From Rhodoferax sediminis (lineage in GTDB: Bacteria > Pseudomonadota > Gammaproteobacteria > Burkholderiales > Burkholderiaceae_C): a stretch of DNA of 64,000 bases. The notes under the pieces were generated by a model. That model did no database searches and was not told the origin of the DNA. It worked only from the letters and a program-made list of their open reading frames with translations. The stretch lies in the NCBI RefSeq assembly GCF_006970865.1, contig NZ_CP035503.1:1129001-1193000 (forward strand). Direction: 5' to 3'. This document shows, in pieces, positions 1-17,568 of this stretch. How positions within the stretch are numbered: the stretch's first letter is position 1; each line of letters starts with the position of its first letter. Both the position numbers and the translations under genes were made by a program.

Positions 1-128
1 GACAGCAGGCTCGCGAGATCTTGCAGCTGGATGTGTTCTACGAAACCGCCGATGAGACGCTGGCCAAGAACGGCTTCGCGCCCAACCGCAAGGGTGGCAA
101 TCAGGGCTTCCTGCGCAAGCCGGACTAA
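1..128 (+). CDS. BKACE family (DUF849) protein, C-terminal fragment cut by window edge
   Basis: The open frame enters from the left edge (first whole codon at 3) and stops with TAA at 126-128. Its 41 residues match the C-termini of the two complete DUF849 proteins in this window (4671-5729 and 15302-16360): all share QAREI, a VFY-ET motif, NGFAPNR and a final GFLRK. DUF849 enzymes (beta-keto acid cleavage enzymes) condense a beta-keto acid with acetyl-CoA, giving acetoacetate and a shortened acyl-CoA. The metal-binding part lies outside the window. The MDR oxidoreductase gene follows after 39 bases and is probably co-transcribed. Confidence 0.85.
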   Translation, partial: QQAREILQLDVFYETADETLAKNGFAPNRKGGNQGFLRKPD

Positions 129-167
129 CGCCACCGCGTTGATACAACCACAACAGGAGACAAAAAA

Positions 168-1148
168 ATGGCAAGGGTCGTTAAATTCTACGAAACGGGC
201 GCTCCCGATGTACTGCGGTTTGAGGATGCAGACGTTGGTGAACCGGGGCCCGGAGAGGTTCGCTTGCGCCACGTGGCGGTGGGCCTGAATTTTGCGGACA
301 CCTACTTCCGCAGTGGCATCTACCCGGTGCCGCTGCCCAGCGGCATCGGCAACGAGGCGGCCGGCGTGGTCGAGGCCGTCGGTGCCGGCGTGAGCGATTT
401 CGTGGTCGGTGACCGTGTGACCTACACGGGCTTTACCAACACGCTGGGCGCCTACAGCACGCAGCGGCTGATTTCTGCCGCACCGCTGATCAAACTGCCC
501 GAAGGCATCAGCTGCGAGACCGCGGCTGCAATGACCATGCGCGGTTTGTCTGCTTCCTACCTGTGCCGCAGGATCTACCCGTTCCAGGGCGATGAAACCA
601 TATTGCTACATGCCGCCGCCGGTGGTGTGGGCCTGATCGTGTCCCAGTGGGCCAAACTTCTGGGCCTCCATGTGATTGGAACCGTCTCTACCGAGGCCAA
701 GGCCGAAGTGGCACGCGCCCACGGTTGTGAGCACATCATCAACTACAGCCATGAAGACGTTGCCAAGCGCGTGCGCGAGATCACCAACGGCGCGGGCGTC
801 TCTGTGGTTTTTGACAGCGTGGGCAAAGACACATTCATGGCTTCGCTGGACTCGCTCAAGCGCCGCGGCCTGCTGGTGTGCGTGGGTACCGCCTCCGGAA
901 AAATCCCCCCGTTCGACCCTGCGATCCTGGCCCGCAAAGGCTCCGCATACATCACCCGTCCAGGTTTGGCCGACTACATCGCGGATCCGGCCGAAAAGGC
1001 GGAACTGGTCGGGGAGCTCTTCGGCCATGTGGCGGCAGGGCGTATCCACATCGAGATCAATCAACGGTATGCCCTGGAGGATGCGGTGCAGGCGCACCGG
1101 GATCTTGAAGGCCGGAAGACAACCGGATCATCCATATTCGTTATTTGA
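168..1148 (+). CDS. Zinc-independent MDR quinone oxidoreductase (Qor-like), locus 0 copy
   Basis: A 326-residue medium-chain dehydrogenase/reductase of the NADPH:quinone reductase type, which reduces quinones or enones with NADPH in the cytoplasm. An N-terminal GroES-like domain is followed by a Rossmann domain with the AAAGGVG dinucleotide motif near residue 148. The structural-zinc cysteines of alcohol dehydrogenases are absent. AGGAGACA lies just before the ATG. It sits between a BKACE gene and a Bug receptor gene, which suggests a shared catabolic operon. A closely similar 3' remnant occurs at 14317-14376, and a more diverged full copy at 6664-7644. The physiological substrate cannot be read from sequence. 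Confidence 0.88.
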   Translation: MARVVKFYETGAPDVLRFEDADVGEPGPGEVRLRHVAVGLNFADTYFRSGIYPVPLPSGIGNEAAGVVEAVGAGVSDFVVGDRVTYTGFTNTLGAYSTQRLISAAPLIKLPEGISCETAAAMTMRGLSASYLCRRIYPFQGDETILLHAAAGGVGLIVSQWAKLLGLHVIGTVSTEAKAEVARAHGCEHIINYSHEDVAKRVREITNGAGVSVVFDSVGKDTFMASLDSLKRRGLLVCVGTASGKIPPFDPAILARKGSAYITRPGLADYIADPAEKAELVGELFGHVAAGRIHIEINQRYALEDAVQAHRDLEGRKTTGSSIFVI

Positions 1149-1175
1149 GGATTCCGCTTTCAAAGGTGAACTTTC

Positions 1176-2168
1176 ATGGCATTCAATTCAATGAAACTGC
1201 GAGTCTTCGCGATAGCTGCGCTTTCCTGGCTAACGGCGGTATCGCCTGCGCTGGCGCAGCAATGGCCGGATAAACCCATTCGGTTGATCGTCCCCGCACC
1301 TCCTGGCGGCATTTCCGATGCGGCAGCACGCTTGCTCGCTGAGCAGCTACGGGCCAGTCTTGGTCAGCCCGTGGTGGTGGACAACAAGCCAGGTGGTTCG
1401 GCTGTCATCGCCGAACGGGCACTGATGAGCGCGCCTGCGGATGGCTACACTTTGATGGTGGGGCCATCAAGTGTTCTGACCGATATACCACTCACCGTCA
1501 AGACACCTTACGATCCGCTCAAGACGTTCACCTATGTGGCAGAAATCACCAGCATGTTTCATGTGCTGGTGGCCAATGCAAACTTTCCGCCCAACAATGT
1601 CAAGGAATTACTGGACTACACCAAGAGCCATCCCCGCTCGGTCAGCATAGCGAATTCCAGCGTCGGCAACCGCTCGGATCTTCTCGGCGAGATGCTTAGG
1701 GCAAAGAGCGGTAATGACATCCTGGTCGTTCCATACAAGGGTTCAGCGCCTGCCCTGGTCGACCTGATGGGGAACCAGGTGCAACTGACCTTTGATGTCG
1801 TCAGCAATGTCGCCCCACTTGTCAAGAGTGGCAAGCTGAAGGCGCTTGCAATAGCGTCGTCGACACGCTCCCAGTACCTTCCCAAGGTTCCCGGTTTCGG
1901 CGAATTGGGGCTGCCTGATTTTGTCCTTCCTCACGCGAGCGTTGGCGTCTTTATGCTGAGCAGCACGCCCAAACCGCTTGCCGATCGAATCCAGAGCGAA
2001 ATGGCGAAGGTTGTACATGCCCCCAAATTCCGCGAAGCGCTGGCCGCGCAGGGCTTCGATCTACCGCAAGATGCCTCGATGGATCAGCTTCGGCAGATAC
2101 TGGCCGCGACCATGGCCAACAATCGAGCAATCATAAAGAAGCTGCAACTCGAGATCAGTCCTGACTAA
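1176..2168 (+). CDS. Bug-family tripartite tricarboxylate transporter substrate-binding protein
   Basis: 330 residues with a signal peptide ending in ALA-QQW near residue 28, followed by the KPIRLIVP start typical of Bug/TctC periplasmic receptors. These bind organic acids and normally pass them to TctA/TctB permeases, but no tctAB is present here. The AGGTGA-like Shine-Dalgarno favours ATG 1176; a second in-frame ATG at 1191 would give a shorter n-region. It follows the MDR gene by 27 bases, so the two are probably co-transcribed and the ligand may be the substrate or an intermediate of this pathway. Length fits the family (about 320-330). Confidence 0.88.
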   Translation: MAFNSMKLRVFAIAALSWLTAVSPALAQQWPDKPIRLIVPAPPGGISDAAARLLAEQLRASLGQPVVVDNKPGGSAVIAERALMSAPADGYTLMVGPSSVLTDIPLTVKTPYDPLKTFTYVAEITSMFHVLVANANFPPNNVKELLDYTKSHPRSVSIANSSVGNRSDLLGEMLRAKSGNDILVVPYKGSAPALVDLMGNQVQLTFDVVSNVAPLVKSGKLKALAIASSTRSQYLPKVPGFGELGLPDFVLPHASVGVFMLSSTPKPLADRIQSEMAKVVHAPKFREALAAQGFDLPQDASMDQLRQILAATMANNRAIIKKLQLEISPD

Positions 2169-2299
2169 GCCTCTGCCTCGAATTACGGCAATGGCCCTGT
2201 GGGCCGTTGCCAGTTGCGTGGGCGGCGGGTGTTTGTCATGCACGTTGAGCACGCGCAACGCAAGGTCGCTGGCAAAGTGAGGCTGCACTGTAACTTCCC

Positions 2300-2395
2300 C
2301 GGGATTTTTCCCAACGCCTGCACTTGCTCTGGCACCAGCTCCACGGCCGTGTCCTGGTCGTCCGGCAGGTACTTGTACTCGCGCAAATGCGTTTG
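2300..2395 (-). pseudogene. Possible hsdR 3' remnant in a 324-base gap
   Basis: The gap 2169-2492 holds no complete gene. On the minus strand, reading down from about 2395, a short open stretch encodes LREYKYLPDDQDTAVELV followed by a PEQ-QAL segment. This resembles the extreme C-terminus (DUF3387 end) of type I restriction HsdR subunits, where a tyrosine-rich PPD-Q segment precedes a helical EQA-L tail. There is no start, no upstream domain and no hsdM or hsdS nearby, so I read it as a fragment left by deletion. Identification rests on motif memory only. Confidence 0.35.
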
Positions 2396-2492
2396 CCGTC
2401 AGGCGTTGTTTACCGATCAGGCATTCAGAGCAGGGCAGATCAAGTCAAGGTAAACGTCAACGTCAACATGGAACGCGCACGGCAATTCGCTC

Positions 2493-3835
2493 TCAGACTG
2501 CGGTGCTGGCGCTCAGGTTTCCGGTCAAGGGTGGCGCCACGTCCAGCTTCGCATCGGAGATCTGCGCCACATCCGCGTCATAACTGCGCATTGCGATGAC
2601 ATAAACCACCGCGGCCAGTGTGCTGAACAGCGGAGTGACTGCCAGTGCCTGCTGCAAACCCCATTGGTCGGACAGGACACCCGCCAGGAACGGGCCCACG
2701 GCCAGGCCAAACAGGTTCTGAAACAGGGTAAGGACGGCCGCACCGGTAGAGCGCACACCTGGGTGAACGACATCAATGACGATACCGGCACCCACACCCG
2801 GGGTGCAAGTCAGAAAGAAGCCACCCAGAACGATCAGCTTGAACTGTGCATCCCCCGTGTAGGTACCGCCAAACGCCACCATGAAGATCACCGAGGTGAG
2901 CACGCACAGCACGGACAGCAAGGGTAGCTTGTTGCGCGGCTTGCGAAGTGCCAGGCGGTCCACCACAAACCCCCAGAACACGCAACCAAAGGCGCCGGCC
3001 AAGATCACCACTGCCGTTTGCTTGCCTGCAGCCTCCGGAGTCATGCTGTGGAAACGGTTCAGGTAGCTGGGCAGCCACGCCCAGACGGCCGACAACGTAA
3101 TCAATTGCAACGCCCCTCCGACACAGACCCACAAGAGCGTGCGCGTGCGCGCCATCGTGCCAAAGATATGCTTGAGAGTTCCCCCAGAGACTGGGCTACC
3201 TGGCCCTGTTTTGGCGTCAGTGCCGCGGTCTTGTAGTCGCGCACGAACAGATAAAGCACGGCCAGTACAAGTCCCGGCACACCGACCACGCCGAAGGCGG
3301 CCTTCCAGCCCCAGTGGGCCGCGATCACGCCCCCCAGCACCACGCCCAGTACCGAGCCCAGCGATCCTGCAGCGAGGAAGGCGCCGAGCACGGCACTGCG
3401 CAAACGCTTGGGATACAGTGTCGCGATAAGGGCTGCCCCTGCGGAGCCGTAGCCGGCTTCACCCGCCCCCACCACCGCACGCGCCACAAACAGTTGGCCG
3501 AAATTGGCCGTGAACATGCAGGAAATAGAGGCCGCGCTCCATATGCCGGCCATCACAACGATGCTCTTCACACGGCTCACGCGGTCTGCCAGCAGTGATA
3601 GTGGTAGTGTGCCCACCGCCACCACGATGGAAATGATGGAAACCAGGGAACCGAGCTGTTTGTCACTCAGGTTCCATTCGCTCTTGATATGGGGAAACAG
3701 CGAGACGATCACCTGCCGGTCGATGTAATCGAACAGCATGAGCCCGAAGGTCATGGCAAAGGCAAACCAGGCTTGCCGCTTGCTTATCAGGTAGTCGTTG
3801 TTGCCGGCCTCGGGGCCGTCGGGTATCACGTTCAT
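2493..3835 (-). pseudogene. MFS transporter, frameshifted (locus A copy)
   Basis: Two overlapping minus-strand frames (3835 to 3101 and 3155 to 2493) together match the intact 458-residue MFS protein at 12916-14292 end to end. The first ends out of frame after an AQSLGEL segment; the second resumes at ARTRTLLW. At the join this copy has five G residues (3181-3185 on the complement) where the intact paralogue has six (13599-13604), so a one-base deletion explains the break. The N-terminus has the FDYIDRQV and R-KSIVVM signatures of the anion/organic-acid cation symporter branch. It is last in a minus-strand operon after the CMD gene. A sequencing error is the main alternative. Confidence 0.8.
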
Positions 3836-4058
3836 GCTTGTCTCCTAATTTTTTTGAATTGATTCAACCTTCAGTCATCAAGTCTGTGAACACGGACTTG
3901 ATTGCTGAACAGGCTGGCTCGCCGGTGCGCAGCTTGAGTCTCTTTTCAGGGTGACGGAAGCTGCTTGCAGGCCTGAAGGTCGTTTTATGAAGGGCTGCCG
4001 CAGGATGCCAGGTATGGCAAGTTTCTTACGGTAGATGAGGTAGATGTATGCCCGGGAC

Positions 4059-4499
4059 CTACGCAAGCGCGGCAGTCTTCCCGGTTGCGTCGAGCTTGGC
4101 GATCTCCTCGATGAGCATCGGCGCTGCCATGCTGTTCGCGTGAAGGCCAAGCACACTCACCCCTTGGAGTACGGCAGTGATCTCCTCCTTCGTAGCGCCC
4201 ATTTCCAGCGCTCGACGTATGTGGCGCCGGATGCCTGGCGCGTACATGTGAGTGCACGAGGCATCCACTGCAATGGCGATGAACTCCCACACCTTGGGTT
4301 CGATCAGAGCTTTGGCCATCGGGTGCATGGCCATCGCCATGAATTTCTCAGTCCAGATCGGGTCAAGTTCGGTGAAACCATCCCAGTCGGCATTCCAGTT
4401 CTCGGAGATACGAAGCTCATCGCAAATCGGCGTGTCGGATTTGAGCGGAATAGCCGTCTCGCTGAAACTCATTTCGGGGCCATCGGGCGCCACGTTCAT
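4059..4499 (-). CDS. Carboxymuconolactone decarboxylase (CMD/AhpD-like) family protein
   Basis: 146 residues with the CMD helical core (EKFMAMAMHP, then WEFIAIAVDASCTHMYAPGI, then MGATKEEITAVLQ). AhpD-type peroxidases need a CxxC pair; here only Cys82 is present (Cys-Thr-His-Met), so a disulfide-based peroxidase role is unlikely and a decarboxylase-like or unknown role remains. The first nine residues and the ribosome-binding region match the start of the neighbouring MFS genes, and a second Met at residue 10 may be the ancestral start. The gene lies between a BKACE gene and the broken MFS gene on one strand. Confidence 0.75.
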   Translation of the reverse strand: MNVAPDGPEMSFSETAIPLKSDTPICDELRISENWNADWDGFTELDPIWTEKFMAMAMHPMAKALIEPKVWEFIAIAVDASCTHMYAPGIRRHIRRALEMGATKEEITAVLQGVSVLGLHANSMAAPMLIEEIAKLDATGKTAALA

Positions 4500-4577
4500 G
4501 TTTGTCTCCTAATGTTTATGAAATACCGGCCACGGTCCTGACGCATATCGCCCACGGCCGAGGCGGGGGAACGTACT

Positions 4578-4657
4578 CGGTGGCCAACCGTTGTATCAAG
4601 GCCTCGGCCATGGGCCACTCACCAAAACCGGATGCCGGGTTGAGGTGGCATGGCCTG
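4578..4657 (-). pseudogene. 3' remnant of an RBBP9-like hydrolase gene
   Basis: Read on the minus strand, this stretch encodes HLNPASGFGEWPMAEALIQR and a few more residues, matching the C-terminus of the intact hydrolase at 12312-12881 with about four mismatches in 74 bases. The stop codon is lost: the intact copy has GAG TAA, here GAG TAC. Nothing upstream survives, because the BKACE stop codon lies only 14 bases away. The downstream leader also matches the intact locus, so the fragment marks an old junction between hydrolase and transporter genes. Confidence 0.8.
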
Positions 4658-4670
4658 CTGCATCGCGTGT

Positions 4671-5729
4671 TCAGGCCGCCTTGCGCAGGAAGCCCTGCTG
4701 GCCGCCGTTGCGGTTCGGCGCAAAGCCGTTGGCCAGCAGGCTTTCTTCCGTTGTGTCGTAGAACACGCCAATCTTGGAGATTTCGCGCGCCTGTTTCGCC
4801 GTGGCGATGGGGCGGCTGAGCTCGCGCGAGATGCGCACCAGCTGGTCGATCTGCTTGGCTGTGCCGATCTTGGCCGTGCGCGACTGGTTCCAGAGGTTGT
4901 CCTCCGTGCCGGTGCGCACGTGCAGGCCCAAGGCGATGCCCATCGTGTTCACTGGCAGCACGTTGAGTACCGAGGCTTCCACCGTCAGCACCGCGCCGTC
5001 AGGCACGGCGCGCACGATGTTGGCCATGTTGTAGAGGTTGGCCGCGTCCATGCCGCCACCGATGGCCACCCAGTTCATCACCAGCGGGCCCTTGTAGACG
5101 CCGCGGCGCATCAGGCGCTCCACCGACTCGAAGCTGTTGATGTTGTAGCACTGGAAGGCGCTCTGGATGCCGGCCTTGGTCAGGCGGCGGACGTGCTCCT
5201 CGACCCAACCCGGCTGCGCCGGCACCGTCATTTCCTTGTAGGCATTGAAGACCGCCGGGTCTTCCATCGAAGTACCCTTGATGTCCCGCATGTCGAACTG
5301 TTCAAGGACATTCATTTGTGACGTGTTGACCGTCACCGTGACCTGGTCGGGCTTGGGGTCGAGCTCGGCCAGCATGTGGCGCGTGTCGTCGGAAAGCCAT
5401 TTGGCCGCCGCACCATCGGTCTCGGGCGCGAAGCTGATTGAGCCGCCCACCTGGATGATCATCTCGGGCACCGCGTTGCGCACGCCGGCAATCAGTTCGT
5501 TGAACTTGGACAGGCGCTTGCTGCCCCTGCCATCGAGTTCGCGCACATGCAGGTGCAGCACGGTGGCACCGGCGTTGTAGCAGTCCACCGCCCGTTGGAT
5601 CTGGTCCTCCATCGTCACGGCGATCTCGCCGGGAAAGTCAGAAGGCATCCACGAGGGAGCGTAGGGCGCAGCCGTGATGATCAGGGGTTGCTGGTTTTCA
5701 GGGAAAAGGTGACCGTCGAGAAAGTTCAT
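4671..5729 (-). CDS. Beta-keto acid cleavage enzyme (BKACE, DUF849), locus A copy
   Basis: 352 residues, a TIM-barrel zinc enzyme of the BKACE family, which cleaves a beta-keto acid using acetyl-CoA to release acetoacetate and a new acyl-CoA. The HLHVRE motif supplies the two metal-binding histidines (His59, His61), and the later GLHVR-G-ED segment supplies the conserved glutamate region (about 270-277). The start is supported by GGAGACATG just upstream. It is third in a minus-strand run: MDR oxidoreductase, TauD dioxygenase, BKACE, CMD, broken MFS. Strongly similar to 15302-16360; the family is certain, the substrate is not. Confidence 0.9.
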   Translation of the reverse strand: MNFLDGHLFPENQQPLIITAAPYAPSWMPSDFPGEIAVTMEDQIQRAVDCYNAGATVLHLHVRELDGRGSKRLSKFNELIAGVRNAVPEMIIQVGGSISFAPETDGAAAKWLSDDTRHMLAELDPKPDQVTVTVNTSQMNVLEQFDMRDIKGTSMEDPAVFNAYKEMTVPAQPGWVEEHVRRLTKAGIQSAFQCYNINSFESVERLMRRGVYKGPLVMNWVAIGGGMDAANLYNMANIVRAVPDGAVLTVEASVLNVLPVNTMGIALGLHVRTGTEDNLWNQSRTAKIGTAKQIDQLVRISRELSRPIATAKQAREISKIGVFYDTTEESLLANGFAPNRNGGQQGFLRKAA

Positions 5730-5794: not shown

Positions 5795-6643
5795 TCAGTA
5801 CGGCTTGTCGCCAATAATTCCGGCTCGCTCCATTTTTCGGTAGCACGGCGGGTAGTCCATCACTGCGTAATGCTGGGTGGAGCGGTTGTCCCAGATCGCG
5901 ACGCTGTTGGGTTTCCAGCGGAAGCGCACCTGGTATTCGGGGATCATGGCCTGGCTGAGCAGATACTGAAGCAGGGCCGCACCGCCCTGCGTGTGGTCCT
6001 GGCCATAGCGCACGCGCTCAGGCGTGTGGTAGTTGGTGAAGTGGGTGGTGAAACCATTGACAAACAAAACCTTCTCACCGGTTTCGGGGTGGGTACGGAC
6101 CACGGGGTGCTCGGCATCGGGGTACGCGGCCTTGAGCGCCAGGCGCTTTTTGATCGGCATGACCGCGCCAAAGGTGGACTCAATGCTGTGGCGCGCGCGC
6201 AGGCCCTCAATCTGCTGCTTGACGGTCTCTGGCAGCTTCTCATAGGCCAAAACCATATTGGCCCACATGGTGTCGCCGCCCACGGGCGGGCATTCCACGC
6301 AGCGCAGCACGCAACCCAGCGGTGTGATTTCACGCCAGGTGGCATCGCTGTGCCACGAGTTCTCGTACCGGTCGTTCGGCTGGTCGGGCGATTTGTAGAT
6401 GCGCACCAGGCCAGGGTTATCGGGGTCGCTGCCAAGAACTGGATGATCTTCAAGCTCGCCAAAGCGGCGGGCAAACGCCACGTGCTCGGCACGCGAAATG
6501 TCTTGATCACGCAGGAACAGCACGCGGTGCTTCAGCAGTGCGGCGCGGATCTCGGCGAACAAGGCATCGTCTTTGGCCGCGTTGGCGAGGTTGACGCCGA
6601 TGAGTTCGGCGCCAATCGCACAGGTCAGGGGCTCAATGTGCAT
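5795..6643 (-). CDS. TauD/TfdA-family 2-oxoglutarate-dependent dioxygenase, locus A copy
   Basis: 282 residues of the non-haem iron dioxygenase family. These couple 2-oxoglutarate decarboxylation to hydroxylation of a substrate such as a sulfonate, aryl ether or betaine. The iron triad is visible as His98-Ser-Asp100 and the later His in STQHYAVMDY, followed by arginines in RKMERA that bind 2-oxoglutarate. I start at 6643, where AGGAGACAA precedes the ATG. The open frame continues upstream to 6934 only because it runs through the MDR gene in another frame. The end is 66 bases before the BKACE gene. About 70 percent alike by eye to 14392-15234. Confidence 0.88.
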   Translation of the reverse strand: MHIEPLTCAIGAELIGVNLANAAKDDALFAEIRAALLKHRVLFLRDQDISRAEHVAFARRFGELEDHPVLGSDPDNPGLVRIYKSPDQPNDRYENSWHSDATWREITPLGCVLRCVECPPVGGDTMWANMVLAYEKLPETVKQQIEGLRARHSIESTFGAVMPIKKRLALKAAYPDAEHPVVRTHPETGEKVLFVNGFTTHFTNYHTPERVRYGQDHTQGGAALLQYLLSQAMIPEYQVRFRWKPNSVAIWDNRSTQHYAVMDYPPCYRKMERAGIIGDKPY

Positions 6644-6663
6644 GATTTGTCTCCTGTTGGGTC

Positions 6664-7644
6664 TCAGATCACAAAAATCGAAGAGCCCGTGGTCTTGCGG
6701 GACTCCAGGTCGCGGTGGGCCTGCACGGCATCCTGCAGCGCGTAGCGCTGGTTGATCTCGATGCGGATGCGCCCTGCCGCCACATGGCCGAATACCTCGT
6801 CGGCCAGGGCTGCTTTCTCGGCCGGGTCGGCGATGTAGTCGGCCAGGGCCGGGCGGGTCAGGTACAGCGAGCCCTTGCGGGCCAGGATTTGCGGATCGAA
6901 CGGCGGGATGGTGCCTGAGGCGGTGCCCACGCACACCATGAGGCCGCGGCGCTTGAGGGAGTCCAGCGACGCCTCGAACGTGCTGCGGCCCACGCTGTCG
7001 AAGACGACATTCACGCCTACCCCCTCTGTGAGCTCCCGCACCCGCTTGGCCACGTCTTCACGGCTGTAGTTGATGGTGTAGTCGCAGCCGTGGGCGCGCG
7101 CCACCTCGGCCTTCTTGTCGGTGGAGACGGTACCGATCACCGTCAAACCCAACAGCTTGGCCCACTGCGAGACGATCAGGCCCACGCCACCGGCGGCGGC
7201 GTGCAGCAGCACGGTATCGCCCGCCTTGAAAGGATGGATGCGGCGCATCAGATAGGCCGAAGTCAGGCCGCGCATGGTCATGGCAGCGGCGGTCTCGAAG
7301 GCGATCGCCTCGGGCAGCTTGATCAGCGGCTCGGCCGGAATCAGGCGCTCCGTGCTGTAGGCCCCCAGGGTGTTGATGAAGCCCGTGTAGGTGACGCGGT
7401 CGCCGGCCACGACGTTCGTCACGCCCGGGCCCACGGCTTGCACGACACCCGAGGCTTCGACCCCCATTCCATTGGGCAGCGGAATCGGGTAGGTGCCATT
7501 GCGGAAATAGGTATCGGCGTAATTCAGACCTACGGCGACGTGGCGGAGGCGGACCTGACCCGGCCCCGGCTCGCCCACCTCGATATCCTCGTAGCGCAGG
7601 ACCTCGGGGGCGCCCGCTTCATAAAAGCGTACGGCTTTGGCCAT
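6664..7644 (-). CDS. Zinc-independent MDR quinone oxidoreductase (Qor-like), locus A copy
   Basis: 326 residues, the same length as and clearly paralogous to 168-1148, with LLHAAAGGVGLIVSQWAK as the NADPH-binding loop and no zinc ligands. It is the first gene of the minus-strand catabolic run and is divergent from the AraC-type regulator at 7778, so the 133-base gap between them is the likely control region. AAGGAGACG supplies a good ribosome-binding site. The C-terminal codons differ from locus 0 at many silent positions, so this copy is older than the near-identical remnant at 14317. Confidence 0.88.
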   Translation of the reverse strand: MAKAVRFYEAGAPEVLRYEDIEVGEPGPGQVRLRHVAVGLNYADTYFRNGTYPIPLPNGMGVEASGVVQAVGPGVTNVVAGDRVTYTGFINTLGAYSTERLIPAEPLIKLPEAIAFETAAAMTMRGLTSAYLMRRIHPFKAGDTVLLHAAAGGVGLIVSQWAKLLGLTVIGTVSTDKKAEVARAHGCDYTINYSREDVAKRVRELTEGVGVNVVFDSVGRSTFEASLDSLKRRGLMVCVGTASGTIPPFDPQILARKGSLYLTRPALADYIADPAEKAALADEVFGHVAAGRIRIEINQRYALQDAVQAHRDLESRKTTGSSIFVI

Positions 7645-9951: not shown

Positions 9952-11067
9952 ATGAAAAAATCCCTAGTTGCTCTGGCTGCCCTCGCTCTTGTCGGTGCGG
10001 CCTCTGCCCAATCCTCAGTGATGCTGTACGGTGTTCTGGACGCAGACATCGCCCACTTCAGTCAAGGCGGTCTCAGCAAAACGATGTTGACCAGCAGCGG
10101 CAACTCTGGAAGCCTGCTCGGTTTCCGTGGCACGGAAGACCTGGGCGGCGGCTTGTCGGCCAATTTCTGGCTGGAAAGTACCTTACTCAGCGACACTGGC
10201 AGCGGTCTTGGTGGAGGGTTGACCTTCAATCGTCGCTCGACTGTCAGCTTGGCCAGTGATTTTGGTGAAATTCGCCTGGGTCGTGACTACACCCCGTCGT
10301 TCGTCAACCACTACGTGTTCGATCCGTTCCTCCTGAGCGGGCCTGGTGCCGGGAGCAACATTACCCTGGGCGGTGGCGCCAATGGTGTGGCTGGCGGCAA
10401 TGCAGCTACCGCGGTCCGTGCCAACAACTCCATCCAGTATCTGTGGGGCTTTAACCCCAATGCCATTGCCGCCATTGGCAGCGGTGTGTACGCGCAACTG
10501 ATGTACGCTTTCCCCGAGAACGTCAGTGGTACGCCAGCTCTCGGCCAATACACCGGCGGACGCCTTGGCTATGCCAATGGCCCGGTGAACGCGGCGATTT
10601 CCTATGCGCAGTCCAAAGGTACGCCCTATGCTGCCGATGTTGGGCGAGGTTACAGCACCTACAAGGAATTCAACCTGGCAGGGTCGTACAGATTCGGCTT
10701 GGGTCAGCTAATGGCCCACGTGGGCACGAACAACTCCGACGCCGCTGGCACCAAATACACTCATTGGGGGCTGGGTGCCACCATCAACGCCGGTCCCGGC
10801 TACATCCCGATCGCCTTCAACTCCATCAAGCAAAACAACGCAACCAGCGATGGTGCCGACCAGATTGCAGTGGGCTACGTGTACGCCCTGTCCAAGCGTA
10901 CCGTCCTGTACGGGACGCTTGCTCACATCCATAACAAGAACAATGGCACCTACACCTTCTCGGGCTCTAACGGTGGCAACAACCCCGGCTTGCAGACAGC
11001 GTTTGGTGGCGGCATGTCGTTCGGTAACGGCACCGGCTACGCCGTTGGTCTGCGGACCAGTTTCTAG
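9952..11067 (+). CDS. Gram-negative trimeric porin (Omp32/OmpC type)
   Basis: 371 residues with a classical signal peptide (MKKSLVALAALALVGAASAQ), then SSVMLYGVLDADI, the usual first strand of beta-proteobacterial general porins. Features of the family are the FRGTEDLGGGLSANFWLE segment, the GEIRLGRDYTPSF segment and a terminal phenylalanine (GLRTSF) needed for outer-membrane insertion. It forms a diffusion channel for small solutes. It stands between R2 (divergent) and R3 (convergent), so it probably serves uptake of the catabolic substrate. Confidence 0.93.
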   Translation: MKKSLVALAALALVGAASAQSSVMLYGVLDADIAHFSQGGLSKTMLTSSGNSGSLLGFRGTEDLGGGLSANFWLESTLLSDTGSGLGGGLTFNRRSTVSLASDFGEIRLGRDYTPSFVNHYVFDPFLLSGPGAGSNITLGGGANGVAGGNAATAVRANNSIQYLWGFNPNAIAAIGSGVYAQLMYAFPENVSGTPALGQYTGGRLGYANGPVNAAISYAQSKGTPYAADVGRGYSTYKEFNLAGSYRFGLGQLMAHVGTNNSDAAGTKYTHWGLGATINAGPGYIPIAFNSIKQNNATSDGADQIAVGYVYALSKRTVLYGTLAHIHNKNNGTYTFSGSNGGNNPGLQTAFGGGMSFGNGTGYAVGLRTSF

Positions 11068-11146: not shown

Positions 11147-12187
11147 TTACTTTTTCGCTCGCGGGGGTGCTGGCCGGCGGCGCGCGGCGCCGCGTGCGGC
11201 CCGGCTCTCCTTGGCGCTGCAACCGAATTGCGCGTGGTACCAGCGTGAGAGGCCGCTCGGCGCGGAAAAGCCGAGCAGGGTCGCCACCTCGGTCAACGGA
11301 CGATCGCTCTCGACGACATGACGCACGGCGAGTTCCTTGCGGATGTCGTTCACCATCGACGAAAAGCTTTCCCCTTGTTCCGCCAGCCGGCGCTGGACCG
11401 TGCGGCACACCACGCCCAGATGCTCGGCCATCTGTTCGATGCTGCAGCGCCCACTGGGCAGCAGCAGCAAGATCGCGCGCCGCACGTCCTCGAGCATTGT
11501 CGCCCCTTGCAGCTTGGCCGACGCGTCCAGCAACTGCTGCGCGTAGCGCGCCATCGCCGGATCGGCCGACGGGTTGGGCGCATCGAGATCGGCTTTCGCG
11601 CAGATGATGCAGTTGCAGTCGTAGTCGAACTCCACGCAGCGGCCGAACAGCCGCAGATGCGCACTGACGTCGCGCGGCGCCGGATGCTCGAAGCACACGC
11701 GCCGCGGCTGCCAGTTGGCTCCGAGGAACTGGCGCATCAACCGCAGCATCACCCCAAGCGCCAGCTCGATCCTTTGGCGCGTGGGCTGCTGCGCGTTGCC
11801 AGCCATTAAGTCCTCGCGGATAACAACCAGTCCGGCGGCCTCCTCGATCATCAGCGACAGCGAACCATTGAGCAGCACCTGATAGCGCATCAGCACATCA
11901 AGCGAGTCGCGCAACGTCGCCTGGTCGCGGATCAGCATTCCCACCGCTCCAAGGTTGGACAGCAGGCGCGACTCGGCCATGCACAGTCCGAAACTCTCGT
12001 TGCCGGATGTGGTTGCCGATGCCTGGAGCAGTTGCCCGACACGCTCGACCGGAATCATGAGGTCCGGTTCGCGCAATACGCTCGGACTTAACCCCGCGTC
12101 AAAGAGCATCCGCATCGGGTCCAGTCCGGCGGCACGAGCGACCTCGCTGTAGTTGGTGAGGCTTGCGGCGCGGACAAGTGACGACAT
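11147..12187 (-). CDS. AraC-family transcriptional regulator (R3)
   Basis: 346 residues. The N-terminal SSLVRAASLTNYSEVARAAGLDP closely follows R1 and marks the sensor domain; the C-terminus has AEHLGVVCRTVQRRL and ATLLGFSAPSGLSRWYH, the paired AraC helix-turn-helix motifs. I start at ATG 12187 by alignment with R1; the open frame reaches 12313. The C-terminal tail is unusually rich in Ala and Arg. It is divergent from the hydrolase gene at 12312, so it likely controls the hydrolase-MFS-TauD-BKACE-CoA-transferase series. Confidence 0.82.
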   Translation of the reverse strand: MSSLVRAASLTNYSEVARAAGLDPMRMLFDAGLSPSVLREPDLMIPVERVGQLLQASATTSGNESFGLCMAESRLLSNLGAVGMLIRDQATLRDSLDVLMRYQVLLNGSLSLMIEEAAGLVVIREDLMAGNAQQPTRQRIELALGVMLRLMRQFLGANWQPRRVCFEHPAPRDVSAHLRLFGRCVEFDYDCNCIICAKADLDAPNPSADPAMARYAQQLLDASAKLQGATMLEDVRRAILLLLPSGRCSIEQMAEHLGVVCRTVQRRLAEQGESFSSMVNDIRKELAVRHVVESDRPLTEVATLLGFSAPSGLSRWYHAQFGCSAKESRAARGAARRRPAPPRAKK

Positions 12188-12259: not shown

Positions 12260-12311
12260 CGAACCCACACTCAGAGCATCGACTGGCGATTCGACAATAC
12301 ATGAGATCAAC

Positions 12312-12881
12312 ATGAAATCAACGGCCCCAACCGTCCTTATCGTTCCCGGCCTGCGCGATCATGTAAGCGAGCATTGGCAGACCCTGCTGGCGGCGCGCTT
12401 GGCCCAAGTGCGTACGGTCCCGCCCATGGGCCGTGAGGATCTCAACTGCGCCGACCGCGTCAAGGCCATCGAGCGCGAAATTGCTGCCATCAAGGGGCTC
12501 GTCGTGATTGTTGCGCACAGCGGGGGCTGCGTCATGGTGGCGCATTGGGCCAGGACCACGCGCCATGCGGATGCGGTGCGTGGCGCCCTGCTGGCCACAC
12601 CCCCCGATTTCGACAGCCCCATGCCGGCCGGCTACCCGAGCCTGGACGCCTTGCAGGCGGGCGGCTGGCTGCCCGTGCCGCGCGAGCGCCTGCCGTTTCG
12701 CAGCCTGGTGGCGATGAGCCGCAACGACCCACTCGGAGCGTATGAGCGCGTGGGCGAGCTGGCCCAGGCCTGGGGTAGCGAGACGGTGGACCTTGGCAAC
12801 GTCGGGCACCTCAACCCCGCATCCGGTTTTGGCGAGTGGCCCATGGCCGAGGTCTTGATACAACGGTTGACCACCGAGTAA
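12312..12881 (+). CDS. RBBP9/YdeN-family serine hydrolase
   Basis: 189 residues of the small alpha/beta-hydrolase group related to RBBP9. The nucleophile is in VIVAHSGG (Ser70), the acid in MSRNDPLG (Asp139) and the histidine in VGHLNPASGFGEW (His166), the hallmark end of this family. The long open frame starts at 12153 but overlaps the R3 promoter region; ATG 12312 fits the family length. It is the first gene of the plus-strand locus B, 34 bases before the MFS gene. A 3' remnant of a sister copy lies at 4578-4657. The substrate is unknown. Confidence 0.82.
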   Translation: MKSTAPTVLIVPGLRDHVSEHWQTLLAARLAQVRTVPPMGREDLNCADRVKAIEREIAAIKGLVVIVAHSGGCVMVAHWARTTRHADAVRGALLATPPDFDSPMPAGYPSLDALQAGGWLPVPRERLPFRSLVAMSRNDPLGAYERVGELAQAWGSETVDLGNVGHLNPASGFGEWPMAEVLIQRLTTE

Positions 12882-12915
12882 TTTATCGGTATTTAATAAA
12901 TATTAGGAGACAAGC

Positions 12916-14292
12916 ATGAATGTGATACCCGACAGTCCCAGGGCCGGCAACGACGACGACTACCTTATAAGCAAGCGGCAAGCCTGGTTTGCCTTTGCCA
13001 TGACCTTCGGGCTCATGCTGTTCGATTACATCGACCGGCAGGTGATCGTCTCGCTGTTTCCCCACATCAAGAGCGAATGGCATCTGAGCGACAAACAGCT
13101 GGGTTCCCTGGTGTCCATCATTTCCATCGTGGTGGGGGTGGGCGGAATCCCGGTGGCGCTGCTGGCAGACCGCATCAGTCGTGTGAAGAGCATCGTTGTC
13201 ATGTCCACCATATGGAGCCTGGCCACCATCTCGTGCATGTTCACGGCCAATTTCGGCCAGTTGTTTGCGGCGCGTGCCGTGGTGGGGGCCGGTGAAACCG
13301 GTTATGGCTCGGTGGGGGCTGCGCTGATCGCGACACTGTTTCCCAAACGCTTGCGCAGTACCGTGCTCGGTGCCTTCTTCGCTGCCGCATCGCTGGGCGC
13401 GGTACTGGGCGTGGTGCTGGGGGGCGTGATCGCGGCCCAGTGGGGCTGGAAGGCCGCCTTCGGCGTGGTCGGTGTGCCCGGACTTGTGCTGGCCCTGCTC
13501 TATCTGTTCGTGCGCGACTACAAGACCGTGGCTCTGACGCCAAAAGTGAGCCAAGTGAGCCTGGTGAGCCTGGTGAGCCAAGCGAGCCACCAGTCTCTGG
13601 GGGGAACTCTCAAGCATATCTTTGGCACGCTGGCGCGCACGCCCACGCTGTTGTGGGCCTGCCTCGCAGGGGCGATGCAACTGGTGACGATGTCGGCCGT
13701 CACGTCGTGGCTGCCCAGTTTCCTGAACCGCTTCCACAGCATGACCCCGGCGGCTGCAGGCAAGCAAACGGCGTTGGTGATATTGGTCAGCGCTGTTGGA
13801 GTCATCCTCTGGGGCATCGTGGTGGACCGCTTGGCACGTCGCACACCGCGCTACAAGCTACCCTTGCTGTCCGTGCTATGCGTGGTCACCTCAGTGATCT
13901 TCATGGAGGCGTTTGGTGGCAGCTACACGGGGGATGCACAGTTCAAGCTGATTGTTTTTGGTGGCTTCTTCATGACTTCCATCATGGGTGTGATCACCGG
14001 CATTGCCATGGACGTCATTCACCCGGGCATGCGCTCTACCGGCGCGGCCGTACTTGCCGTGATTCTGAATCTGTGTGGCCTGGCCGTGGGGCCGTTCCTG
14101 ACGGGTGTCTTGTCCGATCAATGGGGTTTGCAGCAGGCACTGACCGTCGTTCCATTGTTCAGCATATTGGCTGCCGCGCTTTTCATCATCGCAATGCGCA
14201 CTTATGACGCGGACGTGGCCCGGATCTCCGATGTGAAGCTGGATGTGGCGCCAGCCCTCACCGGCCACCTAAGCACCGACGCCGCAGCTTGA
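12916..14292 (+). CDS. MFS transporter, intact locus B copy
   Basis: 458 residues with about twelve hydrophobic segments. FDYIDRQVIVSLFPHIKSEW after the first helix and the LADRISRVKS loop between helices 2 and 3 mark the major facilitator superfamily, probably an organic-acid symporter of the inner membrane. The central cytoplasmic loop contains a five-unit 9-base tandem repeat (13546-13590) absent from the frameshifted paralogue at 2493-3835. The ribosome-binding site is TTAGGAGACAA. It lies between the hydrolase gene and the MDR remnant and is probably in one operon with TauD and BKACE. Confidence 0.88.
   Translation: MNVIPDSPRAGNDDDYLISKRQAWFAFAMTFGLMLFDYIDRQVIVSLFPHIKSEWHLSDKQLGSLVSIISIVVGVGGIPVALLADRISRVKSIVVMSTIWSLATISCMFTANFGQLFAARAVVGAGETGYGSVGAALIATLFPKRLRSTVLGAFFAAASLGAVLGVVLGGVIAAQWGWKAAFGVVGVPGLVLALLYLFVRDYKTVALTPKVSQVSLVSLVSQASHQSLGGTLKHIFGTLARTPTLLWACLAGAMQLVTMSAVTSWLPSFLNRFHSMTPAAAGKQTALVILVSAVGVILWGIVVDRLARRTPRYKLPLLSVLCVVTSVIFMEAFGGSYTGDAQFKLIVFGGFFMTSIMGVITGIAMDVIHPGMRSTGAAVLAVILNLCGLAVGPFLTGVLSDQWGLQQALTVVPLFSILAAALFIIAMRTYDADVARISDVKLDVAPALTGHLSTDAAA
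13546..13590 (+). repeat. Five 9-base tandem repeats inside the MFS gene
   Basis: Units GTGAGCCAA, GTGAGCCTG, GTGAGCCTG, GTGAGCCAA and GCGAGCCAC encode SQVSLVSLVSQASHQ in the loop between the two six-helix halves. The unit length is a multiple of three, so expansion keeps the frame. The paralogue at 2493-3835 has only a short QGQVAQ at this place. Confidence 0.85.
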
Positions 14293-14316
14293 TAGTGCTA
14301 TGCCTTACACGACGGC

Positions 14317-14376
14317 GTGCGAGCACACGGTGATCTTGAAGGCCGGAAAACAACCGGATCATCCATATTCGTTATT
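14317..14376 (+). pseudogene. 3' remnant of an MDR quinone oxidoreductase gene
   Basis: This stretch encodes DLEGRKTTGSSIFVI, the exact end of the MDR protein at 168-1148, with near-identical DNA (compare 1097-1145 with 14331-14376). The stop codon TGA has become TAC and the frame runs on into TauD. The rest of the gene is missing. The match is much closer to the locus 0 copy than to the locus A copy, so the fragment came from a locus 0-like sequence. Confidence 0.85.
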
Positions 14377-14391
14377 TACAAGGAGACCACC

Positions 14392-15234
14392 ATGCGAGTC
14401 GAACAACTGACCTGCTGCATCGGCGCCGAGATTTCGGGCGTCAACCTCGGTGATGCCGCGCGCGACGCGGACCTGTTCGCCGAAATCAAGGCGCTGCTGC
14501 TCAAGCACCGCGTGCTGTTCCTGCGCGACCAGGACATCAGCCGCGCCGAGCACGTGGCCTTTGCGCGCCGCTTTGGCGACCTGGAAGACCACCCCGTTGC
14601 CGGCAGCGACCCCGACCACCCGGGCCTGGTGCAGATCTACCGCAGCGACAAGCGCGAGAACTACGAGAACAACTACCACACCGATGGCATGTGGCGTTCC
14701 ACTCCGACCATGGGCTGCGTGCTGCGCAGCATCGAGGTGCCGCCCGTCGGCGGCGACACCATCTGGGTCAACATGGTGGAGGCCTACAAGAATCTGCCCG
14801 AAGACGTGAAGAAGCGCATCAACGGCCTGCGTGCCAAGAGCAGCATTGAGCACAGTTTTGGAGCCGTCATGCCGGAAGAAAACCGCCTGGCGCTTGGGAG
14901 AGACAATCCCATGGTGGAGCATCCGGTGGTGCGCACTCATCCTGAGACCGGCGAGAAGGTGCTGTACGTCAGCAGCTTCACGACGCACTTCTCCAACTAC
15001 CACACGCCCGAGAACGTGCGCTTCGGCCTCGACAAGACGCCCGGCGCCAGCCAACTGCTGAACTACCTGCTCAGCCAGGCCAGCATTCCCGAGTACCAGG
15101 TGCGCTTCCGCTGGAAGCCCAATAGCGTCGCGATCTGGGACAACCGCTCCACCCAGCATTACGCAGTGATGGACTACTGGCCCGCCCCGCGCAAGATGGA
15201 ACGCGCCGCGATCATCGGCGACAAGCCGTACTGA
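14392..15234 (+). CDS. TauD/TfdA-family 2-oxoglutarate-dependent dioxygenase, locus B copy
   Basis: 280 residues. Iron ligands are His96-Thr-Asp98 in NYHTDGMW and His256 in STQHYAVMDY; the RKMERA arginines near 267-271 would bind 2-oxoglutarate. It hydroxylates an unknown substrate with O2 and 2-oxoglutarate in the cytoplasm. AAGGAGACC before ATG 14392 fixes the start; the upstream open frame is the MDR remnant. It differs from the locus A copy mainly near residues 84-110, in the active-site lid region, so the two may differ in substrate. BKACE follows after 67 bases. Confidence 0.9.
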   Translation: MRVEQLTCCIGAEISGVNLGDAARDADLFAEIKALLLKHRVLFLRDQDISRAEHVAFARRFGDLEDHPVAGSDPDHPGLVQIYRSDKRENYENNYHTDGMWRSTPTMGCVLRSIEVPPVGGDTIWVNMVEAYKNLPEDVKKRINGLRAKSSIEHSFGAVMPEENRLALGRDNPMVEHPVVRTHPETGEKVLYVSSFTTHFSNYHTPENVRFGLDKTPGASQLLNYLLSQASIPEYQVRFRWKPNSVAIWDNRSTQHYAVMDYWPAPRKMERAAIIGDKPY

Positions 15235-15301
15235 GCGCCGGGCTCACCAAGCCCCTCCCTTGTTTCTTCCCTGATTCCCCATCTGTTGCTGGAGACATGC
15301 A

Positions 15302-16360
15302 ATGAATTTTCTTGACGGCCACCTATATCCTGAGAACCAGCAGCCCTTGATCATCACGGCCGCCCCCTATGCGCCGGGGTGGCTGCCCTCCGACTTTCCC
15401 GAAGACATCCCGGTCACCATGGAAGCGCAGATCCAGAAGGCGGTGGATTGCTACGACGCCGGCGCCACCGTGCTGCACCTGCATGTGCGCGAACTCGACG
15501 GCAAGGGCTCCAAGCGCCTGTCCAAGTTCAACGAGCTGATCGCCGGCGTACGCAAGGCCGTACCCGAGATGGTGATCCAGGTCGGCGGCTCCATCAGCTT
15601 TGCCCCGGAGAACGAAGGCGAAGCCGCCAAGTGGCTGAGCGACGACACCCGTCACATGCTGGCCGAGCTCGATCCCAAGCCCGATCAGGTCACGGTGACG
15701 GTGAACACCTCGCAGATGAACGTCACCGAGCAGGCGGAACTGGCGGATTTCAAGGGCACCTCGCGCGAGAACCCCGCCATCTTCAACGCCTACAAGGAAA
15801 TGACGGTGCCCGCGCAGCCCGGCTGGGTGGAAGAGCACATCCGCCGCCTCACCAAGGCCGGCATCCAGAGCGCCTTCCAGTGCTACAACATCAACAGCTT
15901 CGAGTCGGTGGAGCGCCTGATGCGCCGGGGCATCTACAAGGGCCCGCTGGTGATGAACTGGGTGGCGATTGGTGGCGGCATGGACAAGCCCAGCGTCTAC
16001 AGCCTGGCCAACTTCGTGCGCGACGCGCCCGATGGCGCGGTGCTGACGGTGGAAAGCCACGTGCGCAACGTGCTGCCGGTGAACATGATGGGTATCGCGA
16101 TGGGCTTGCATGTGCGCTGCGGCACCGAAGACGGCCTGTGGAACCAATCGCGCACCGCCAAGGCGAGCACCGTCTCGCAGATCGAGCAACTGGTGCGCAT
16201 CTCGCGCGAGTTCGGTCGCCCGATCGCCACCGCCCGCCAAGCGCGCGAGATCAGCAAGATTGGCGTGTTCTACGACACGGTGGAAGAAAGCCTGCAGGCC
16301 AACGGCTTTGCTCCCAACCGCAACGGCGGGAATCAGGGTTTCCTGCGCAAGGCCGCCTGA
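15302..16360 (+). CDS. Beta-keto acid cleavage enzyme (BKACE, DUF849), locus B copy
   Basis: 352 residues, colinear with 4671-5729. LHLHVREL supplies the zinc-binding histidines (His59, His61), and GLHVR-G-ED near residue 270 supplies the glutamate region. Expected chemistry is a beta-keto acid plus acetyl-CoA giving acetoacetate and a new acyl-CoA. TGGAGACATGCA precedes the ATG. Downstream, only 5 bases separate it from a class III CoA-transferase frame, which would fit transfer of CoA between product and substrate. That neighbour is interrupted, so the locus B pathway may be partly lost. Confidence 0.9.
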   Translation: MNFLDGHLYPENQQPLIITAAPYAPGWLPSDFPEDIPVTMEAQIQKAVDCYDAGATVLHLHVRELDGKGSKRLSKFNELIAGVRKAVPEMVIQVGGSISFAPENEGEAAKWLSDDTRHMLAELDPKPDQVTVTVNTSQMNVTEQAELADFKGTSRENPAIFNAYKEMTVPAQPGWVEEHIRRLTKAGIQSAFQCYNINSFESVERLMRRGIYKGPLVMNWVAIGGGMDKPSVYSLANFVRDAPDGAVLTVESHVRNVLPVNMMGIAMGLHVRCGTEDGLWNQSRTAKASTVSQIEQLVRISREFGRPIATARQAREISKIGVFYDTVEESLQANGFAPNRNGGNQGFLRKAA

Positions 16361-16365
16361 ATTTC

Positions 16366-17568
16366 ATGAACAACCCAGCGCTTCCTCTCTCCGGCATCCG
16401 TGTGCTGGACCTTTCCCGTGTGCTGGCCGGCCCCTGGTGCGGCATGGTCCTGGGGGACTTTGGTGCCGAGGTGATCAAGGTCGAGCACCCGAAGCGGGGC
16501 GACGACACACGCGACTGGGGCTTGCGCGTCGGCTCGACGCAGACCGCCTACTTCAACAGCGTCAACCGCAACAAGCGTTCGGTGACACTGGACCTGCAGA
16601 CCACCGAAGGCCAGCGGCTGGCGCTGGAGCTGGCCCGGCAATGCGACGTCGTGATCCAGAACTTCAAGTTCGGCGGTGTCGAGAAAATGGGTCTGGGCTT
16701 TGAGTAGGTCAAGGCGGTGCGGCCCGACGTGGTGTACTGCTCGATCTCGGGCTACGACCGCAGTGGCCCCGAGGCGGCGCGACCGGGCTACGACCTGCTG
16801 GTGCAGGGCGAGGCCGGCTTGATGGCCCTGAATGGCGAGGCCAACCAGCCGCCGCTGAAGTTCGGCGTGGCGGTGGTGGACCTGTTCACCGGCATGTACT
16901 CGGCCCAGGCGGTGCTGGCGGCGCTATTCGAGCGCCAGCGCACCGGGGAGGGTCGCCACATCGAGATGGCGCTGTACGACTGCGGCATCATGGTCACCGC
17001 CTACTATGGCCTCGAGGCGCTGCTGATGGAAAAAGATCCGCTGCGCTACGGCAACTCCCATCCTTCCATCGTGCCCTACGGCGTGTTCGACGCGGCCGAT
17101 GGCCCGCTCGTCATCACCGTGGGCAACAACGGCCAGTTCGAGCGTTTCTGCCGCGAGGTGATCGAGCGCCCCGACCTGGCCGACGACGAACGCTTCACCA
17201 CCAACGTGAAACGTACCGCCAACCGCGAGGCGCTGTTGCCGCAGATCCTGCGCGAGTTGCGGAGCCGCCCGCGTGCCTTGCTGTTGCAGCGCCTGGGGGG
17301 CGCCGGCATCCCCTGCGGCGAGGTGCTGGGCCTGCACGAGGCACTGACCTCCGAGCGCACGACGCGTGGCGGCCTGCTGACTCAGCAGCCGCACCCCGAA
17401 GCCGGCAGCGTACACGTGCCAGCGCCACCGTACCGCCTGGATGGCGAGCGCCTGCCGGTGCGCCGCGCGCCGCCGCTGCTGGGCGAGGGCACGCAGGACG
17501 TGCTGTCCGAGCTGCTCGGCCTGAGCGAGACCGAGCTGCAGCGCCCCAAGGCCGCAGGTGTCGTCTGA
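16366..17568 (+). pseudogene. Class III (CaiB/BaiF) CoA-transferase interrupted by an amber codon
   Basis: A 401-codon frame with the full-length CaiB/BaiF fold: IRVLDLSRVLAGPWCGMVLGD at the start, FNSVNRNKRSVTLDL for CoA binding, and the catalytic aspartate in RPGYDLLVQ (Asp143). Codon 114 is TAG (16705-16707), between GFE and VKAVRPDVVYCS. A single CAG-to-TAG change would explain it. No other lesion is seen. The upstream piece alone lacks the active site; the downstream piece could start at GTG 16717 but would lack the N-terminal domain. A sequencing error or amber suppression are alternatives. Confidence 0.8.

Follow-up and report, generated by a model that had tools for sequence, protein, structure and literature searches.

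A TauD-BKACE gene island of Rhodoferax sediminis as a possible multi-paralogue form of a recurrent module and a candidate for organosulfonate breakdown

Results

Gene content of the island

We analysed a stretch of 64,000 nucleotides (the window) from Rhodoferax sediminis, bases 1129001-1193000 of its single 4.39 Mb contig (NZ_CP035503.1). One end of the window carries an island of genes for TauD-type Fe/2-oxoglutarate dioxygenases, BKACE-family cleavage enzymes and their companions. All genes named in a preliminary description of this DNA were recovered by open reading frame (ORF) and Pfam checks at agreeing positions, and BKACE0 proved to lie mostly to the left of the window. The genes form three loci: locus 0 holds BKACE0, MDR0 and a Bug/TctC gene, locus A is on the minus strand and locus B on the plus strand, and three AraC genes and a porin gene sit between the loci. 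All three BKACE genes of the genome fall within about 17 kb, and the island has two of the three TauD-family genes of the genome.

TauD_A (5795-6643, minus strand) scores 222.5 bits against PF02668 as a longer ORF and TauD_B (14389-15234, plus strand) scores 217.7 bits; the gathering cut-off is 27, which places both in the TauD/TfdA superfamily. BKACE_A (4671-5729, minus strand, 194 bits), BKACE_B (15302-16360, plus strand, 199.7 bits) and BKACE0 (209 bits) belong to PF05853, for which the gathering cut-off is 24.8. Only the 3' end of BKACE0 is in the window (1-122, plus strand); the gene starts about 930 bp to its left and occupies L004:16070-17122, L004 being our number for the window's own locus. 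MDR0 (168-1148, plus strand) and MDR_A (6664-7644, minus strand), identified by Pfam, are of the QOR type. They reach 357.9 and 362.7 bits against the NADPH:quinone reductase subfamily model NF008024, with a cut-off of 348, and are presumably zinc-free, by family.

Each AraC gene is divergent from one unit, as judged by coordinates. AraC1 (7778-8782, plus strand, PF12625 and PF12833, start uncertain between 7679 and 7778) faces MDR_A-TauD_A-BKACE_A-CMD-MFS_A. AraC2 (8792-9799, minus strand) faces the porin gene (9952-11067, plus strand, PF13609 E 7.9e-49). AraC3 (11147-12187, minus strand) faces locus B, in the order hydrolase-MFS_B-TauD_B-BKACE_B-CoA-transferase. In locus A, the CMD gene (4059-4499, minus strand, PF02627 E 2.3e-7) encodes a carboxymuconolactone decarboxylase family protein, and the Pfam-identified transporter gene MFS_A (2493-3835, minus strand) is split by a frameshift into ORFs 3101-3835 and 2493-3155. 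Locus B begins with a RBBP9/YdeN-family serine hydrolase gene (12312-12881, plus strand, PF06821 E 8.4e-41) and an intact transporter gene, MFS_B (12916-14292, plus strand, PF07690 E 1.2e-47). It ends with a class III CoA-transferase gene (16366-17568, plus strand), which is interrupted by an in-frame TAG at 16705-16707 and has PF02515 in both pieces; the C-terminal piece scores best, below the cut-off, as a succinate-glutarate CoA-transferase. Alignment of the repeats revealed two stubs, one of a hydrolase (4576-4647, minus strand, 24 residues, 167-190) and one of an MDR (14299-14376, plus strand, 26 residues, 301-326). The Bug/TctC periplasmic binding protein gene of locus 0 is at 1176-2168 (plus strand, PF03401 E 1.1e-54).

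The gene set recurs in two phyla

We scanned with TauD_B, one genome per species, and took the best 80 of 298 stretches as the locus sample; 56 of the 80 are at least 20 kb long. Within the fetched stretches, BKACE (at least 50% identity) was found in 67/80 loci, MDR (at least 50%) in 56, hydrolase (at least 50%) in 41, MFS (at least 30%) in 45, AraC (any identity) in 59 and class III CoA-transferase (at least 60%) in 18. The 13 loci whose fetched stretch has no BKACE include 5 of the 56 full-length ones. The hosts include Burkholderiaceae, Comamonadaceae, Alcaligenaceae, Pseudomonas, Sphingobium and Streptomyces. MDR, TauD and BKACE, usually with an RBBP9-type hydrolase, MFS and AraC, occur together in three proteobacterial classes and in Actinomycetota, and the neighbour set of the preliminary description, for which a search in other genomes had been advised, thus recurs in two phyla.

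The order MDR-TauD-BKACE is found in Rhodococcus, Tsukamurella, Novosphingobium, Azoarcus, Caballeronia, Sphingobium (L109) and another alphaproteobacterium (L122); Streptomyces instead has BKACE-MDR-TauD. Compact operons lie on annotated plasmids of Rhodococcus gordoniae, Tsukamurella, Novosphingobium ES2-1, Streptomyces, Azoarcus and Caballeronia (the six plasmid loci), of which that of Azoarcus has no adjoining AraC gene. A hydrolase gene stands near BKACE in Rhodococcus, Tsukamurella, Novosphingobium, Azoarcus and Caballeronia. Plasmid matches in Pseudomonas aeruginosa H15 and Ensifer have only one of TauD and BKACE each. In the common layout, AraC is divergent from MDR-TauD-BKACE, followed by hydrolase and MFS in either order, and in some hosts the layout ends with CMD, YeiH, an acyl-CoA ligase or acetoacetate-activating genes. 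In Sphingobium estronivorans (L109), one strand carries MDR-TauD-BKACE-hydrolase-CMD-MFS-YeiH. Locus A shows this order too, with the hydrolase reduced to a stub and without YeiH. Genes that activate acetoacetate are in the fetched stretch of 10/80 loci, as acetoacetate-CoA ligase in 5 Streptomycetaceae loci and as AtoDA in 5 Pseudomonas loci. On plasmid p1 of Caballeronia grimmiae (L103:5537-11998), a gene for a small Rieske protein and methylcitrate-cycle genes come after the set in the same orientation. Elsewhere in 132 loci, Prp proteins gave only a 32% PrpC match in L017, and the Rieske protein was matched in 7 others.

Co-occurrence was measured in two genome samples. Among 250 genomes of the window's order, 8 have the BKACE subfamily (threshold E 1e-60) and 9 have the TauD subfamily. 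Each of the 8 BKACE-positive genomes, the window genome included, is TauD-positive (Fisher p 3e-14, a value that ignores relatedness), and the ninth TauD-positive genome has only a 50% match. In a tool-drawn sample of 398 genomes from the phylum, BKACE was found in 17 and TauD in 14 of those 17, and 11 of the 17 have a TauD no more than 150 bp from a BKACE; the 3 BKACE genomes without TauD have BKACE at 49-60% identity. Recurrence and co-occurrence together favour the shared pathway that the preliminary description had suggested.

Several copies per genome are common. TauD-bearing genomes (n=24) have 1 to 7 BKACE matches each, some of them partial. The megaplasmid of Cupriavidus metallidurans CH34 has 5 places matching TauD and 4 matching BKACE (E 1e-80), and the CH34 genome paper mentions at least six taurine dioxygenase genes (PMC2864759). 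Given these megaplasmid matches, some of the CH34 genes probably belong to the TauD subfamily of the island.

Other genes were seen beside the set. Small proteins of 159 and 121 residues (one or both), with no Pfam match, are encoded near B-type TauD in several genera (L014:8956-9790 and L020, L024, L031, L032, L051, L060, L065). Genes for CsiD, a DAO-type FAD oxidoreductase and a LysR regulator adjoin the set in Pandoraea and Paraburkholderia (L014:15266-18507, L020, L024), a group that we take to be a glutarate-like module. On the Rhodococcus gordoniae plasmid (L097:11763 onward), an AtoA match (65%) lies between the hydrolase and acyl-CoA ligase genes, where no gene is listed.

The copies are old paralogues

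The repeats between the loci are real, with 83% identity over 1099 nt, 76% over 985 nt and 89% over 604 nt. TauD_A and TauD_B are 73% identical, BKACE_A and BKACE_B 85%, and BKACE_A and BKACE0 74%. We calculated trees by a quick method, with SH-aLRT values as the only support. In the TauD tree (115 rows), TauD_A belongs to a clade of 29 rows (support 98) and TauD_B to a clade of 70 rows (100). The BKACE tree (97 rows) puts BKACE0 in a clade of 24 rows (100) and BKACE_B in a clade of 33 rows (99); BKACE_A stands apart from both, beside a Paraburkholderia eburnea gene (94). The TauD A and B clades and the BKACE 0, A and B clades each span several genera. Both TauD types are together in 11 of the 80 loci, which were fetched with TauD_B as query, and L084 combines an A-type gene with a basal one. 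From the separate clades and these 11 loci, we take TauD A and B to be old, repeatedly co-resident paralogues. The two TauD (A and B) and three BKACE (0, A and B) look like kept, specialised paralogues. A recent local triplication was rejected, as both trees place the copies in separate clades.

The preliminary description had located the TauD differences mostly near residues 84-110, in the lid region. A peak does exist, as 22 of the 79 differences fall within residues 80-119 (permutation value 0.0057, allowing for any block of 40 columns); "mostly" is too strong, with the other 57 differences elsewhere. It had also viewed the loci as copies of one set decaying together, which is not supported for TauD and BKACE copies from separate old clades; the only broken parts of the island are MFS_A, the CoA-transferase gene and the two short stubs. 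The congener Polaromonas sp. C04 has the island in synteny (93-97%); there MFS_A and the CoA-transferase gene are each one open frame, and both the hydrolase stub and the MDR stub can be aligned. Since the stubs are common to the congener and the other two genes are open there, the decay is partly old and partly limited to the window genome. The two new breaks may be sequencing errors.

TauD and BKACE differ from their best-known relatives

Taurine dioxygenase is the closest curated family to the island TauD, at 250.5 bits for TauD_A and 244.6 for TauD_B against the equivalog model NF007104, below its cut-off of 313. Among solved structures, 5vn6 of the own subfamily scores 447 bits, followed by taurine dioxygenases at 182.8 and 180.4 bits and, lower, by the alkylsulfate dioxygenases Rv3406 (139.5 bits) and AtsK (129.4 bits). 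Residues were counted in 110 rows, after 5 distant rows of the 115 in the TauD tree had been dropped, with the numbering of E. coli TauD. The island subfamily shares with E. coli TauD the fold family, the 2-His-1-carboxylate iron site (H99, D101, H255), the 2-oxoglutarate arginine R266 and the equivalents of H70 and R270, all kept in 110/110 rows. It differs in that Y73 is found in 0/110 rows, E replaces N95 in 110/110, and R replaces I105 and W replaces F104 in 108/110 each. In E. coli TauD, we take H70 and R270 to hold the sulfonate and Y73 and N95 to hold the amine. On this assumption, the subfamily would have kept its sulfonate-side residues and changed its amine-side ones. A further difference is the linkage of the island TauD to BKACE, with no taurine ABC importer among the annotated neighbours in the six plasmid loci.

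Taurine itself was rejected as the substrate, given the score below the NF007104 cut-off and the loss of the amine-side residues. In a protein search, 7846 of 8000 scored candidates match TauD_B at E 1e-60 or better, and the source names among the matches listed are taurine dioxygenase or TauD/TfdA dioxygenase. The first of these names is probably wrong for this subfamily. An AlphaFold model of TauD_B (20 rows) has a mean pLDDT of 59, with values below 50 over residues 88-108 and 172-222.

The motif columns are invariant across the three BKACE copies, which were aligned to 2y7d and 8rio. The HxH motif and the R and ED of the C-terminal motif, whose roles we assume to be those of canonical BKACE, are kept. 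So is a tyrosine that aligns with PdKce Y173 by count on the 8rio alignment. Such a tyrosine is described as typical of canonical members (PMC12871164). The island subfamily differs in being long, about 350 residues against 274 profile positions, and in its scores against the four NCBIfam BKACE models matched, which for BKACE_A (the copy scanned) are 73.8 to 122.4 bits against cut-offs of 350 to 725.

A YeiH-family gene is linked to the set in some genomes

A YeiH-family gene (PF03601) lies within or beside the set in Novosphingobium, Rhodococcus, Pseudomonas, Sphingobium and others. In 7 of the 17 BKACE-positive genomes of the phylum sample, three of them from one genus, YeiH is within 5 kb of TauD or BKACE; genome size and YeiH copy number would lead one to expect 0.10. 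A count in 24 genomes gave YeiH within 10 kb in 11, against 0.44 expected, and is biased by 6 chosen loci in which YeiH was already known. Of the 8 BKACE genomes of the order sample, G000 and G234 have YeiH within 10 kb and G111 has it at about 12 kb. At least one YeiH copy, in Sphingobium, was detected by the Pfam model and not by the tblastn search. In a YeiH tree of 36 rows with hand-picked background, 13 of the 17 validly translated set-linked rows are in one clade of 14 rows (support 93); the count leaves aside the Pseudomonas rows L061 and L064, whose translations are out of frame, and the tree was built without L110 and L120. The set-linked members of the clade come from alpha-, beta- and gammaproteobacteria. 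The four set-linked rows outside it are L004 (the window's own), L045, L097 and L109_4147.

The window genome has a single YeiH gene, 249 bp from BKACE0. It belongs to a LysR-YeiH unit of 2.2-2.3 kb, with the YeiE/YeiH layout, that adjoins BKACE0 to the left of the window (L004:13707-15893). In Polaromonas sp. C04 the unit is absent beside BKACE0 and stands on another contig (L124:7482-9683), 94.6% identical. The unit is a relocated sulfite-resistance pair. We assume that TauZ of taurine loci and YeiH are one family. In Salmonella, the sulfite sensor YeiE controls yeiH, and resistance to sulfite requires yeiH (PMC12880088). TauZ is described as a proposed exporter of sulfite or sulfate (PMC3511301, PMC5320631). 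This link to sulfite handling is new relative to the preliminary description.

On the other flank, the G+C content rises from 0.59-0.64 over the first 16 kb to 0.68-0.69 at 16-20 kb, near the right edge of the island (window:1-22000). The right flank (18705-29998) encodes a MarR regulator, a second MDR protein (51% to MDR_A), a NUDIX protein, an SBF-like transporter, a Na/Pi cotransporter, signal peptidase II, a class I tRNA synthetase and riboflavin kinase. One tRNA-Leu gene is at window 53115-53199.

Discussion

The island is best read as a multi-paralogue version of a conserved module of AraC, MDR-TauD-BKACE, hydrolase and MFS, with CMD and YeiH in some hosts. From the conservation, co-occurrence and adjacency of its genes, the old paralogy and the YeiH linkage, we infer a substrate and a series of reactions. 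A small anionic organosulfonate would enter via the porin and the MFS transporter, and TauD would hydroxylate the sulfonate-bearing carbon to give a carbonyl and sulfite. We propose desulfonation on the grounds of the nearest relatives of TauD, the residues that it keeps and the sulfite-resistance gene linked to the set. A substrate of the type R-CH(SO3-)-CH2-COO-, a beta-sulfonated carboxylate, would in this way yield a beta-keto acid for BKACE in one step. If the TauD product is itself a beta-keto acid, this would account for the lack of a dehydrogenase gene between the TauD and BKACE genes of the operon. Beta-sulfonated acids are the products of sulfite addition to unsaturated acids. By family chemistry, BKACE would then convert the keto acid and acetyl-CoA to acetoacetate and R-CO-CoA. 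The acetoacetate could be activated by AtoDA or acetoacetate-CoA ligase, neighbours of the set in some hosts, and the methylcitrate-cycle genes of Caballeronia would fit propionyl-CoA as the acyl-CoA. The RBBP9-type hydrolase may free or process the R acid, and the target of MDR may be an unsaturated or quinone-like form. Different homologues or isomers of the substrate may be shared out among the TauD paralogues (A, B) and the BKACE paralogues (0, A, B). That TauD desulfonates an organosulfonate, perhaps directly to a beta-keto acid, and that BKACE then forms acetoacetate and an acyl-CoA is a tentative proposal that could nearly as well be right as wrong. The strict one-step version, in which the dioxygenase turns a beta-sulfonated acid into a beta-keto acid and sulfite ahead of BKACE cleavage to acetoacetate and acyl-CoA, is doubtful.

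Several points weigh against the organosulfonate proposal. The annotated neighbours in the six plasmid loci include neither an aldehyde dehydrogenase nor a sulfite oxidase, and the scheme gives no firm role to MDR, CMD or the class III CoA-transferase. In 10 of the 17 genomes, including Polaromonas sp. C04, no YeiH lies within 5 kb of the set; leaving out the window genome, the linkage is 6/16, with three cases from one genus. The YeiH of the window genome is itself weak evidence, because it is of a generic type in the tree and has another location in the congener. The R270 position is basic also in family members that bind carboxylates. The invariant E95 calls for caution, as a glutamate there would be no obvious partner for a second acid group on the substrate. 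Methylcitrate-cycle genes directly after the set were seen in only 1 of 132 loci.

The chief alternative is that a sulfur-free acid undergoes CoA-free beta-oxidation: TauD would beta-hydroxylate, a dehydrogenase (perhaps MDR) would make the beta-keto acid, BKACE would cleave it and the hydrolase would free the shortened acid. The layout of this route resembles bacterial butyrobetaine and carnitine breakdown, and the TauD superfamily presumably includes hydroxylases of acids. It would also use the hydrolase gene found near BKACE in the five plasmid hosts, and a BKACE pathway with a dehydrogenase-made keto acid has been described for deoxyribonate (PMC6365646). This route gives no reason for YeiH within 5 kb in 7/17 genomes or for the clade of set-linked YeiH. 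It would moreover need alcohol oxidation by an MDR of the quinone-reductase type, for which we know of no such activity. On balance we regard it as unlikely.

Two further readings are improbable. The substrate could be a sulfate ester, cleaved to release sulfate as by AtsK and Rv3406, which are among the solved relatives, and TauZ has been proposed as a sulfate exporter (PMC5320631); against this, the taurine dioxygenases outscore both enzymes, and the yeiH phenotype tested concerns sulfite and not sulfate (PMC12880088). TauD could equally only scavenge sulfur from assorted sulfonates, beside BKACE and MDR as chance neighbours from unrelated pathways. The source names of the TauD matches and the 13/80 loci without BKACE would agree with this. 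The spacing of TauD within 150 bp of BKACE in 11/17 genomes and the co-occurrence in the order sample argue against it, as does the absence of a sulfonate ABC importer among the annotated neighbours in the six plasmid loci, and AraC control and acetoacetate-activating genes fit carbon use. A 3-oxoadipate-like route, prompted by CMD, hydrolase and BKACE, is a further candidate that was considered. A chance pile-up of decaying catabolic genes in one strain, suggested by two broken genes and two stubs, is rejected as next to impossible by recurrence of the set in two phyla and by synteny in Polaromonas sp. C04, where both genes are open.

Every enzyme of the organosulfonate scheme belongs to a known family. 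In full-text searches of open-access literature we found no publication on this enzyme combination, operon or pathway, in line with the preliminary description, which knew of no pathway joining them. The nearest precedents differ in their chemistry. Deoxyribonate use in Pseudomonas simiae involves an SDR dehydrogenase, BKACE, a lactonase and MFS carriers in one putative operon (PMC6365646). The island set likewise has BKACE in an operon with an oxidising enzyme and MFS carriers, and in both cases acetoacetate needs activation; the SDR makes the keto acid there, whereas the island set has TauD and no SDR in its core. Taurine dissimilation with TauE/TauZ export resembles the proposed scheme in drawing carbon from a sulfonate and in having an exporter for the sulfur oxyanion set free, a part that YeiH may play here. 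It uses Tpa/TauXY and Xsc, not a dioxygenase and BKACE (PMC5320631).

The module spans two phyla, often with several paralogues per genome. Should the sulfur-free route be the true one, the module would be a case of CoA-independent beta-oxidation. If the organosulfonate reading is true, the set would be a concrete, assayable pathway for the recovery of carbon and sulfur from organosulfonates. In its strict one-step version it would be a new way to break carbon-sulfur bonds and could let soil bacteria that live aerobically feed on some of the poorly known sulfonates in soil organic matter, a pool that the two TauD and three BKACE lineages would divide by chain or stereochemistry.

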